The notes below the pieces were generated by a model, which saw nothing but the letters and a program-made list of their open reading frames with translations, was not told the DNA's origin and searched no databases. A DNA stretch of 28,117 bases from a virus: positions 1 to 28,117 of IMG/VR virus record IMGVR_UViG_3300017971_005826. The stretch is one strand, 5' to 3'. Position 1 is the stretch's first letter. Every line of letters begins with the position of its first letter. Made by a program: the position numbers and the translations under genes. This document shows, piece after piece, positions 16,416-26,601 of the stretch.

Positions 16416-16527
16416 GGTACATCCCCAGCATCGAGATGACGGGACGAACAACCGTTCACCATAGCCGGGAGAAGGCCAGCCGACAATCCGAACACTGAGC
16501 CACGCGGGGGCCGGGGACCTCTTCAAC

Positions 16528-16540
16528 CGCCAAGTTGTTG
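16528..16540 (+). repeat. 13-mer CGCCAAGTTGTTG, site 1
   Basis: First of four copies around the integrase promoter: 16528-16540, 16652-16664 (both direct), 16969-16981 (inverted) and 17084-17096 (direct, one mismatch). Candidate integrase arm-type or regulator binding site. Confidence 0.55.
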
Positions 16541-16651
16541 ACGTCGGTATCAACCCTGCCCCCGTGCCGGGGCCCTCCGGGCGGCCGGAGGGCCCTGGCC
16601 TGAAACACACGAGGAACGCGAAGCCACGCGGGGGCCGGGGACTTCTTCAAC

Positions 16652-16664
16652 CGCCAAGTTGTTG
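16652..16664 (+). repeat. 13-mer CGCCAAGTTGTTG, site 2
   Basis: Identical to site 1, 124 bases downstream, within the second tandem element. Confidence 0.55.
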
Positions 16665-16684
16665 ACGTTACTCTTCAACCCTGC

Positions 16685-16732
16685 CCCCGCCGCAAGGCCC
16701 TTCGGGCAACCGAAGGGCCTTGCCCCTTTCTT
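16685..16732 (+). terminator. intrinsic terminator at end of tandem element
   Basis: CAAGGCCCTTCGG-GCAA-CCGAAGGGCCTTG, a 13-bp stem with a tetraloop, followed by CCCCTTTCTTGT. It would end any transcript crossing the tandem elements before the integrase promoter. Confidence 0.65.
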
Positions 16733-20459: not shown

Positions 20460-21458
20460 ATGACGCAGCCAGGCACGGCACGAACGCATGAGGCATCGGT
20501 TGAGAGGATCGACGCGCGGATCGCGGCCACCAGGTGGACCGACGCGATGATCGCGGTCGTCCGCGATCCGGCGCTGACGCCGGCGGCGAAGCTGGCCTGG
20601 CTGTACCTCTGGGATCGCGTCGGGCGCAGGGAGGCCGACGTGACCGCACTGCTGGACGAGGTCATCGGCGCCACAGGGATCGCCGAGAGCACGCTGCGAG
20701 GCACGAAGGGCCGCGGGGACGGGGCGTTCACGATCCTCGCCGCCCGCGGTTATTTCATCTGGAGCCGCCGCCCCAACGGAGACGCATGGGTGGCGATCAC
20801 GGCGCAACCGGCGAGCTGCACTCGCGTTGCGCCCGATCTCCAGGGGGAGCTGCCCTTCGCCCGGGACCCGGACGGAACCGCGCCGGCACCGGAGCCACCG
20901 CCCACCGTCCTCCTACAGGGGACGGGACCAACGCAGGGCGTGGCGCCAGGGCCGGAGGGTCGCGGGGCGCGAAATCCGCGCGAAAACCGCGCGGATTTCG
21001 CGCCCACCCAAGGACAAAGAAGTCGCGCGCGCACGCGCCAAAACCAAGAACCAAACCAATTGGATCTTGGTTCTTGCGCTTCAAGCGGCGGCGCGGAATC
21101 CGCGCGGATTTCGCGCGGCGGCGGGCCGGCCAGAATCGCCGGCGATCTGGAGGTCCTCGCCCAGACAAGCCAGCAGGGCCCGGACTTGGCCGGGCATTGG
21201 ACGAGCCGCCAGAGGATCGTCGATTGGATCGCGGCGATGGTTCCCGGGGCCTGCCCCATCCAGGCCGGGATCGCCGCCGACGCCGTGATGGACGTCGGCG
21301 GCGAGCCCGATGACCTTTACCGCGCGCTGGAATACGCGAGGAGCCTGGAGAAGGCCGGCGAGCTCAAGAAGGACTTCCCCTCGGCCTTCTTCGGCAGCTT
21401 TCAAAACATGGCGCGGCGCCGGGGCTTTCAGTGGCCCCGGAAGCCGAGGCCGAAGTGA
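20460..21458 (+). CDS. replication initiator-like protein with winged-helix N-terminus
   Basis: A 332-aa protein. Residues about 35-110 look like a winged helix-turn-helix (LTPAAKLAWLYLWDRVGR; EVIGATGIAESTLRGTKGRG; LAARGYFIWSRR), the type found in phage replisome-organiser and initiator proteins. Residues 120-235 are low-complexity linker. Residues 240-332 form a helical C-terminal domain (HWTSRQRIVDWIAAMVPG; DDLYRALEYARSLEKAGELK). The linker-coding DNA contains inverted iteron-like repeats and an AT-rich dyad, as in lambdoid O genes that carry their own origin. This supports, but does not prove, an initiator role. Confidence 0.6.
   Translation: MTQPGTARTHEASVERIDARIAATRWTDAMIAVVRDPALTPAAKLAWLYLWDRVGRREADVTALLDEVIGATGIAESTLRGTKGRGDGAFTILAARGYFIWSRRPNGDAWVAITAQPASCTRVAPDLQGELPFARDPDGTAPAPEPPPTVLLQGTGPTQGVAPGPEGRGARNPRENRADFAPTQGQRSRARTRQNQEPNQLDLGSCASSGGAESARISRGGGPARIAGDLEVLAQTSQQGPDLAGHWTSRQRIVDWIAAMVPGACPIQAGIAADAVMDVGGEPDDLYRALEYARSLEKAGELKKDFPSAFFGSFQNMARRRGFQWPRKPRPK
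20966..21116. other. putative replication origin inside the initiator-like gene
   Basis: A perfect 17-bp inverted repeat (GGCGCGAAATCCGCGCG at 20966-20982, its complement at 20988-21004) is followed about 100 bases on by another copy of the same core (21101-21116) with an overlapping inverted copy having one mismatch (21091-21106). Between them is an AT-richer segment with a 10-bp dyad (CAAGAACCAA 21045-21054 with TTGGTTCTTG 21067-21076) centred on CCAATTGG (21056-21063). Iteron pairs around a meltable segment are the usual plan of an origin. Confidence 0.6.
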
Positions 21459-21465
21459 GGCGTCT

Positions 21466-21765
21466 ATGGGCCAGCGCGGACGACAGCTTTGGAGCAAAGA
21501 GAAGCTGCCGGTGGGGACCGTGCGGATCCGCAAGCACTCCAAGCGCGTGCGCGCGCGCATGATCAAGATCCGCGACGACGGACCGAAGGGTCGCCGTTGG
21601 ATCACCTGGGCGCGGTGGTGGTGGCTCAACAACCGCGGGCCGATCCCCCCGGGGATGCGCGTCACGCACCGGGACGGCGACTCGCTGAACGACGACCCGG
21701 ACAACCTGGTGCTCTGCTCCGCGGCGGCGTGGTGCGGATCGGGATCGAGGCGCCGCCGGAAGTGA
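21466..21765 (+). CDS. HNH endonuclease-like protein
   Basis: A 99-aa protein. The region RVTHRDGDSLNDDPDNLVLC carries the His68, Asp, Asn75 and Asn80 pattern of HNH_3-type nucleases (HxDGxxxNxxPxNL), preceded by a basic WITWARWWWLNNRGPIPPG segment. Such proteins in phages nick or cut DNA, as homing enzymes or in replication and packaging. It is short, so it may contain only the nuclease core. It starts eight bases after the initiator-like gene and GTGAGG precedes the ATG. Confidence 0.7.
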   Translation: MGQRGRQLWSKEKLPVGTVRIRKHSKRVRARMIKIRDDGPKGRRWITWARWWWLNNRGPIPPGMRVTHRDGDSLNDDPDNLVLCSAAAWCGSGSRRRRK

Positions 21766-24320: not shown

Positions 24321-24913
24321 ACCGCAACTACCGATCCTTTAACGAGGTCGCCGTACCCGACGAAATCCGCGACGCCGACCTGCTGCTCTACCGCCGACTC
24401 CCCCGGGAGCCGTCCCTGGTGGCCAGGCTGATCGCCGCGTGCGGCCGCGGCGATCACTACCACGCGGCCAAGGTCGCCTGGGCATCCGGCATGCTGCGAT
24501 GCCTGGAAACGCGATCCTGGCGCGACGCGCGTGAAGTGAGTCTGGAGAGCCAGGTCCGCAGGTACCCGGGGCGGATCGACGTGTACCGGAGCAACCCGGG
24601 CGATCGCTGGCCGGAGTACGATCGGGCGGGCGCGACGCGCGTGATGCGTTGCATCAGCGGCAAGAAGTACGGCTGGTGGAATCTTTTGCTGGCCGCGCTG
24701 CTGCACCTGCCGGTGGTGAGACTCTTCGTCCGCGCCGACGTGGACGATCGGGCCGTCGACAAACGCCCGCCCTATTGCAGCCACGCCTGCGCCTACGCGG
24801 ATCGCGTCGGCGGCGGCGTCGATCCGGTCCCCCACCTAGCCGACCGCCTGACCGAGCCGGCCGACCTGGCGCGCAGCCAGTTTTACGAGTACCAGTTCAC
24901 CCTGATCCCATGA
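24317..24913 (+). CDS. permuted NlpC/P60-like (YiiX-type) papain-fold peptidase candidate
   Basis: A 198-aa protein with the pattern of circularly permuted papain-fold enzymes: DADLLLYRRL, then GDHYHAAKVAW with candidate catalytic His49, RRYPGRIDVYRSN, GKKYGWWNLLLAAL, and a late PPYCSHACAYAD with candidate nucleophile Cys154. Relatives cleave amide bonds in peptidoglycan, lipids or proteins. A hydrophobic stretch (121-138) may be structural or membrane-associated. Coupled by ATGA overlap to the regulator before it and to the trypsin-like gene after it. A phage endolysin or a cell-envelope amidase is possible; substrate unknown. Confidence 0.6.
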   Translation: MNRNYRSFNEVAVPDEIRDADLLLYRRLPREPSLVARLIAACGRGDHYHAAKVAWASGMLRCLETRSWRDAREVSLESQVRRYPGRIDVYRSNPGDRWPEYDRAGATRVMRCISGKKYGWWNLLLAALLHLPVVRLFVRADVDDRAVDKRPPYCSHACAYADRVGGGVDPVPHLADRLTEPADLARSQFYEYQFTLIP

Positions 24914-26601
24914 AGAGCGCCGGACTGATTCTGCTGGTGTCCGTCCTGCTGCTGATGCCCCGGCATCCGGCGTCGGGCGAGCGGGCGATCACGGTCGGCT
25001 CTCCCCCCAGCATTGGCCCAGCCGCGCCCGGGGCGGGCGCGATCATCGTGGGGAGATCGCCGAGCGTCGGCACGGCCACACAGCACCCGGCGGTGTGTCG
25101 GATCTCCAACACGATGCCGGGCGGCTGCATCAATTGGGGTAGCGGGACGGTCGTCGATGTCGACAAGACCTCGGCGCTAGTGCTGACGTGCTGGCACATC
25201 TTTGAAGACGGAACCGGCCAGGTGGGCGTCTGCGTCGGCGGGCGATGCGTGGTCGGTCGCTTGGTCACCGTCGACCAGGCCTGGGACCTGGCGGCGGTGG
25301 AGATCTCGGGGACAGGGCTGCGTGCCGTGCCGATCGCCGGCGAATCGCCGAGTCGCGGCGAGCGGCTCATAGCGTGCGGTTTCGGCAAGGGACAGTACGC
25401 GTGCGTCGCCGGCCGACTCAGGGGCTACGTCGCCACCGAAACGGCCGCCAGCCGTGAGACAATGGAGATCGGTGCGGGGGTCCGGGAGGGGGACTCGGGC
25501 GGCCCGGTCCTCAACGGCCGCGGCGAACTGGTCGGTGTCGCGTGGGGGAGCGACGGACGGATCACGGAGGCGACGTGCGTCGGGCCCATCCGGCGTTTTC
25601 TCGGGAGGCTGCGGGGGCGAGACGGGCGCCAGGTGATCGGTCCCCCGGCAGCCCGGCCCGACGCGCCGGCGGCGAGGCGGCCCCTGGTGCCGATCCCGCC
25701 CGGCGCACAGCCCATCGCGCCGTCCATTCCCGTGCCGCCCAGGCAACCGCGCACGCCGGACCTGATCGACCGCGAGAAGCTGGCGGCGGCGATCGAGGCA
25801 GCGTTCGCCGCGCTGGAGGCCCGGCTCGAGGCGCGGCGAAAGGCCGCGCCGATCGACGCTGGCCAGGCCCAGCGGCCGATCCTCGACGCCATCGGCGAGC
25901 TGGGGCGGAAGATCGGCCCGGGCATCGACCGCCAGGCCATCCGGGACGATTTTCGGGCCGTCGCCGGCGACCTGGTGGACGCGGCCGCTCCGACGGTGGT
26001 GGAGACGGCGCTGCCGGCCGCGCTGAGCGCGTTGGGGTGGACGGGCCCACCGGCGATCGCCGCCTGGCTCATCGCCCGCCTGGGCCTGGGCCTACTCCGC
26101 CGGCGTCGGCAGCGACGCGAGCTGGCGCAAGCGACCGGCGCTGGCCAGCCAACCTCTCCGAGCCCGTCGATCCAGATTTATACGCCGACCCCGGAAACGG
26201 GCGATTACCTCGCGTATTGGGCTCACCACTTCGAGGCCACGGGCGGGAACCTCCGGGAAGAAGCTGCCAAGGCCCCAATCTACGTCGAGGCGCTCGAAGC
26301 GCTGAAGGCCGGAAAAATCCAGGTCGACGTCAAGCCGGCGATGATCGCCGGCGGCATCGACGGCCTGGTGGCTCGCGAGTTTGCGCGGCGCGGCGAGATC
26401 CTCCCGCAAGGCGACTTCCGCGACGCGGCGTACCTGGGCTTCCTCTACCGGGACGCCGTCGCGCGGCTCCGAGGGGGCTTGTTGACGGCTTGCGGGTTCC
26501 GGGAGTCGGCCGACGCCATCGGGGCGTGGGTCGCGCAGGAGTTCCAGTTGAAAGTGAAGCGACCACCCCACGTCACATTTTTACAAGGAGTTCTCTCGTG
26601 A
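24910..26601 (+). CDS. exported, membrane-anchored trypsin-like serine protease
   Basis: A 563-aa protein. Residues 1-23 are a signal peptide (MKSAGLILLVSVLLLMPRHP). Residues 60-235 form an S1 protease with the triad His96 (LTCWHIFED), Asp126 (AWDLAAVE) and Ser196 (REGDSGGPV), all present. Residues 245-285 are Pro-rich, 286-345 helical, 378-396 a membrane span followed by RRRRQRR, and 425-563 a distinct helical domain (DYLAYWAHHFEATGG; FLYRDAVARLRGGLL). The protease domain would be outside and the last domain inside, so a cut or binding event outside could be relayed inward. Coupled to both neighbours by ATGA and GTGA overlaps. Confidence 0.7.
   Translation: MKSAGLILLVSVLLLMPRHPASGERAITVGSPPSIGPAAPGAGAIIVGRSPSVGTATQHPAVCRISNTMPGGCINWGSGTVVDVDKTSALVLTCWHIFEDGTGQVGVCVGGRCVVGRLVTVDQAWDLAAVEISGTGLRAVPIAGESPSRGERLIACGFGKGQYACVAGRLRGYVATETAASRETMEIGAGVREGDSGGPVLNGRGELVGVAWGSDGRITEATCVGPIRRFLGRLRGRDGRQVIGPPAARPDAPAARRPLVPIPPGAQPIAPSIPVPPRQPRTPDLIDREKLAAAIEAAFAALEARLEARRKAAPIDAGQAQRPILDAIGELGRKIGPGIDRQAIRDDFRAVAGDLVDAAAPTVVETALPAALSALGWTGPPAIAAWLIARLGLGLLRRRRQRRELAQATGAGQPTSPSPSIQIYTPTPETGDYLAYWAHHFEATGGNLREEAAKAPIYVEALEALKAGKIQVDVKPAMIAGGIDGLVAREFARRGEILPQGDFRDAAYLGFLYRDAVARLRGGLLTACGFRESADAIGAWVAQEFQLKVKRPPHVTFLQGVLS

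Follow-up and report, generated by a model that had tools for sequence, protein, structure and literature searches.

The repeat array inside a helix-turn-helix (HTH) initiator-like gene of a phage is probably the replication origin of that phage, of the iteron type and working like ori-lambda in gene O; we put the probability of this reading at roughly 0.84. The window, that is, the whole stretch analysed, is the 28,117-base virus record IMGVR_UViG_3300017971_005826 (1 to 28,117), which is a fragment. The repeats, the constraint on the DNA that carries them, the weak spot between their two clusters and the recurrence of the layout elsewhere are directly seen. An iteron-type origin within the gene had been proposed in the initial annotation, and the proposal finds support in the repeats, codon usage, shuffles and the repeats of relatives.

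Anatomy of the repeat array and constraint on its DNA

The array is built from a 15-mer, GCGCGRAATCCGCGC, in the linker-coding part of ORF 20460-21458. The two inverted pairs of related repeats described initially are present (20967/20989 and 21091/21102), and two features can be added: a fifth, degenerate copy at 20978 on the plus strand, and an 11-bp direct periodicity of the first three copies (20967, 20978 and 20989), of which the left inverted pair is a part (Table 1). Across the whole record, GCGCGRAATCCGCGC at zero to one mismatch gives three forward and three reverse matches, all within the array, and the reversed control gives none. The left inverted repeat (20965-20982/20988-21005) is perfect, with 18-bp arms and a 5-nt loop, and the second pair (21091-21105/21102-21116) is overlapping and near-palindromic. 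The alternating CG tract and a central dyad (21035-21054/21060-21079, 85% complementary) both lie between the left and right clusters. The pairs do flank an AT-richer dyad, as had been claimed: AT content is 57% at 21041-21080, and the gene's least stable 40-bp stretch, which starts at 21038 inside the dyad, ranks sixth among separated minima in the whole window.

Table 1. Features of the initiator-like gene and its repeat array (positions in the window)
Feature	Positions	Strand	Basis
Initiator-like CDS, P0001, 332 aa	20460-21458	+	N-terminal HTH region, low-complexity linker, helical C-terminal domain
N-terminal HTH/probable winged-helix region, aa 25-118	20532-20813	+	Weak HTH_36 profile match; low-confidence model
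Left iteron cluster	20965-21005		Perfect inverted repeat and 11-bp periodic copies
Iteron copy GCGCGAAATCCGCGC	20967-20981	+	Motif scan
Degenerate iteron copy GCGCGAAAACCGCGC	20978-20992	+	Motif scan, 1 mismatch
Iteron copy GCGCGAAATCCGCGC	20989-21003	-	Motif scan
Alternating CG tract CGCGCGCGCACGCGC	21024-21038		Sequence; CG run of 9
Central dyad, AT-richer tract (CCAAAACCAAGAACCAAACCAA...), candidate unwinding element	21035-21079		Inverted repeat, AT content, stability
Iteron copy GCGCGGAATCCGCGC	21091-21105	+	Motif scan
Iteron copy GCGCGAAATCCGCGC	21102-21116	-	Motif scan
C-terminal domain	21120-21455	+	Coding signature returns; helices in poor model

The repeat copies occupy all three reading frames and both orientations, so no peptide repeat accounts for the array. 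The repeat score over 200 bp is 96, compared with a maximum of 85 in 400 synonymous-codon shuffles of the gene and of at most 80 in 40 Markov shuffles of the whole window; arms in 60 shuffles do not exceed 10 bp, against 18 bp for the inverted repeat. GC3 falls from 0.87 in the N-terminal part to 0.58 in the array and is 0.89 in the C-terminal part, and codon adaptiveness across the array ranks among the lowest 1.6% of gene windows. Repeat density beyond the shuffles and the drop in GC3 argue that the array stretch is shaped by DNA function, which bears out the suggestion that DNA and not protein function dictates the linker. GC skew, which had been named as a check, shows no switch at the array and lends no support to an origin.

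Only one other cluster in the window, at 16490-16725, scores above the array. It was considered as an alternative origin and set aside, being a tandem duplication of 124 bp that contains hairpins and no iteron array. Its 55-nt copies are 93% identical, and its hairpins are strong, one being terminator-like. CGCCAAGTTGT-like sequences occur around 16528, 16652, 16970 and 17086, upstream of the integrase gene, and may serve as attP arm sites or in regulation.

The initiator-like protein and its phage

P0001 had been called a winged-helix protein. In favour of this are its weak match to a local HTH_36 initiator profile, the first among 270 window ORFs (E 0.0043, weakening to 0.048 without the nearest sequences), and the helices, then strands, of the N-terminal region in a low-confidence model; a Pfam match is lacking. 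P0001 matches neither Pfam nor PHROG. For HTH_36 (PF13730) there was no Pfam match even at E 10, and the curated cut-off was not reached; for RepA_N in the N-terminal part there was none at E up to 10, in a search whose HMMER filters drop weak matches. Compared with the profile of the actinophage initiator family (phrog_2447/3926), P0001 scored -0.8, with no hhalign or PHROG match. The linker is low-complexity, GC-rich and of RARAR type. The AlphaFold model of P0001 alone is poor (pLDDT 42.8).

Searches with tblastn gave no P0001 homologues in phages or plasmids; genome contigs and 30 terminase relatives likewise yielded none. Two matches from the viral scan, which share a peptide around IVDWIAAM, were rejected as false. 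The 397 class genomes compared with P0001 gave eight weak matches; of the four inspected, one, L216 (HTH_36), seems relevant, and the other three resemble chance matches. On these sequence comparisons, the absence of detectable homologues, the weak HTH_36 link and the lack of a match to the actinophage initiator profile count against the origin reading.

Genes for the major head protein, tape-measure protein and integrase lie in the window and indicate a temperate, siphovirus-like phage. The upstream part, with terminase, portal, protease and capsid genes, is supplied by a near-identical contig (L072), which also encodes, at its positions 10-1380, at the beginning of this phage's packaging module, a fusion of a ParB-like domain with a DNA methyltransferase. 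Terminase relatives occur in 48 viral contigs and also in metagenome genomes of Phycisphaerae, Puniceicoccales and Lentisphaeria, which points to a bacterial host, probably from the Planctomycetes-Verrucomicrobia group. The window has no recognised gene for a helicase or a loader, and this too counts against the origin reading. A second origin or another replication gene could lie outside the window, since the record is a 28-kb fragment.

Other genes of the window deserve mention. The initiator-like gene is followed immediately by an HNH_3 endonuclease gene (21466-21765); Appa and Catfish have an HNH gene immediately 5' of the initiator. A 650-aa ORF (24649-26601) carries a trypsin-like peptidase domain at residues 164-297, unexpected in such a phage region.

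Recurrence of the layout in other phages and known in-gene origins

The initial annotation had looked to relatives for repeats, and repeats do occur there: in terminase relatives and other initiators they lie within the linker or directly 3' of the initiator or primase gene. Several sets were chosen without regard to repeats. Seven annotated actinobacteriophage initiator genes were picked by protein similarity, and all seven have, by reading, their own mid-gene repeats and/or a 5/6-bp tract. The numeric repeat score of three of these (L121, L122 and L124) is not above shuffles, which counts against the origin reading. In Phycisphaerae, the probable host class, the arrays of 18 of 30 HTH_36 proteins beat all 50 synonymous shuffles. 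Two terminase relatives have repeats in the linker, namely L201 and L204 (TerL 48%), the latter with GTCACGCTCCGAGCGTGAC, AGAGAAGAGAAG and a CG tract. In two more, the array lies just 3' of a primase gene: of an NrS-1 polymerase/DUF5906 gene in L203 (1201-1345, with two clusters around a CG/TG tract) and of a Prim-Pol gene in L208 (4590-4700). The initiator gene was not located in most terminase relatives, partly because the contigs are fragments. The iteron-like arrays of terminase relatives, HTH_36 proteins and actinophage initiators each have their own sequence, and one layout appears, on sequence comparison, to be present in dozens of very different phages. A further terminase relative, L179, has at 881-1080 an array of GGTGTCCC whose copies, in both orientations, surround a GC-rich hairpin; this array is a candidate origin.

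Other loci were found by motif. The window's own motif retrieved 64 viral loci, six of them having iterated arrays with an HTH profile nearby. The reversed-motif control retrieved 20 loci, none with an iterated array; in four of them, one of the two HTH profiles matched an ORF no more than 1.2 kb away. This control argues against pure chance and does not separate descent from convergence. A second scan, with GGAWTCCGNGCGGAWTCC, retrieved 52 viral loci. Among 38 loci with at least three GGAWTCC units, the array lies inside an ORF with a common N-terminal HTH domain in 24, and the HTH ORF ends just 5' of the array in at least 11 more; all 21 aligned members match the PHROG 'replication initiation protein'. 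Of these 35 loci, 18 have a 5/6-bp tandem tract after the array (upstream 0/35; background 1.7%) and 12 have a CG run of 8 or more there (upstream 1/35; background 4.7%), two counts that are not fully independent, the tract being the CG run in a few loci (e.g., L030 and L118). As these 35 GGAWTCC loci were chosen by repeats, the counts describe arrays and not the frequency among all initiators. An actinobacterial-type prophage, L039, has nearly the same GGAATCCGCGC, CCAAAACC and CGCGCGCG as the window phage, with no detectable protein homology. The likeness of the window iteron to the GGAWTCC arrays may be convergent. For the actinophage HTH family, the structural model is good (pLDDT 90.5); Foldseek gave nothing below E 1.7, and the best VIA-align match (Z 7.0) is a common winged-helix arrangement. 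A specific initiator fold is not claimed for this family.

Origins within the initiator coding sequence are known from several plasmids (pSK41, pAD1, pLS32; RepA_N; repABC repC) (PMC3155836), and an origin has been suspected in or beside the mycobacteriophage RepA gene (PMC7157519). The window has the sequence features of an in-gene iteron origin, with repeats between the N- and C-terminal domains, a low-stability tract alongside and constraint at the DNA level. By layout, its array is a candidate member of this known kind, alongside lambdoid phages, SPP1 and several plasmids. The comparison with lambda O made in the initial annotation stands for the layout of in-gene repeats with an adjoining AT-rich tract; as to the protein, P0001 has no detected similarity to O, and its model is too poor for fold comparison. 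The lambda origin in gene O, with its Stx-phage relatives, is a close known system; lambda has four iterons beside one AT-rich tract, whereas two clusters flank the tract in the window; the left cluster has an 11-bp step, and no P-like gene was recognised. SPP1 oriL, in gene 38 (replisome organizer), likewise combines direct repeats and an AT-rich unwinding element in the initiator gene (PMC6316719). SPP1, however, has its own loader and helicase and a second origin, oriR, none of which was recognised in the window. The plasmid origins share the location in the initiator CDS but belong to plasmids and other protein families, and repC lacks iterons.

The actinobacteriophage initiators (phrog_2447/3926; Marvin gp71, Appa gp42, Xula gp58) resemble the window in their HTH region, mid-gene array and CG and CAAAAC-type tracts, and a subset has a GGAWTCCGCGC unit near-identical to the window's. 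Unlike the window, where the tract lies between two clusters, they carry a tandem tract on one side of the iterons, and no similarity of their proteins to P0001 was detected. The 18 Phycisphaerae HTH_36 (PF13730) proteins with arrays have the HTH_36 domain and then the linker array, but their repeat sequence is unlike the window's. HTH_36 Rep proteins are also known from Paracoccus plasmids (PMC3832669). The Paracoccus origins are described upstream of rep, whereas the window array is in-gene.

Proposed mechanism, rival readings and meaning

Lambda (PMC7466680) and SPP1 oriL (PMC6316719) serve as models for how the array would work; binding, melting, helicase loading and replication are what we infer from the sequence features and these analogies. 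The N-terminal HTH domain would bind the pseudo-palindromic repeats with their G(R)AATCC core, which are spaced by about one helical turn and form two clusters. The bound protein would bend the DNA or wrap it. The resulting complex would put strain on the AT-richer dyad (CCAAAACCAAGAACCAAACCAA) lying between the clusters, so that the dyad melts, and the C-terminal domain would presumably recruit the host replicative helicase or its loader.

The best-surviving rival, though an improbable one, is that the repeats are operator sites, at which the HTH protein binds within its own gene to repress or time transcription while replication starts elsewhere. The sites are palindromic and operator-like, binding by the self-encoded HTH protein is assumed in the origin reading too, and replication from the array is itself a prediction. 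Yet the sites lie mid-gene, away from a promoter, with a low-stability tract and a CG run alongside as in annotated replication initiator genes, and in relatives without such a protein the array is 3' of a primase gene. It is less probable still that the array has no origin function and is either a palindromic mobile element (or one of REP type) or the product of chance in a low-complexity, GC-rich coding stretch (the RARAR-type linker). The composition of the linker and the mere five copies would fit such an account, but the motif is found nowhere else in the record, shuffles that preserve protein and codon usage fail to yield the repeats, and differing arrays at the same place in initiator genes are unlike a dispersed repeat. 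Very improbable is an mRNA stem-loop for transcription attenuation or translational control: the perfect 18-bp arms and 5-nt loop would form a strong hairpin, but a hairpin needs neither the second cluster nor the 11-bp direct periodicity, and no terminator-like call falls on the 18-bp stem, the matches being weak ones on the minus strand near 21025-21038.

The array would give phages of the Planctomycetes group a candidate origin, none having been found in the literature searched. It also provides a rule for finding others, namely to search the linkers of HTH initiators for out-of-frame repeats together with lowered codon bias. Beyond the single phage, we tentatively propose, at somewhat less than even odds, a modular origin grammar common to phages of unrelated hosts. 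It would consist of pseudo-palindromic iterons at an 11-bp step, short strand-biased 5/6-bp tandem repeats and an alternating CG run, in the linker of the initiator gene or just behind the gene, with the DNA layout kept while protein and iteron sequence change. The order of the modules (iterons, short tandem repeats, CG run) may not have been described before; exact-term searches of open-licence papers returned no description of it. If this order is general, dozens of phage origins would be predictable from sequence and testable as minireplicons.
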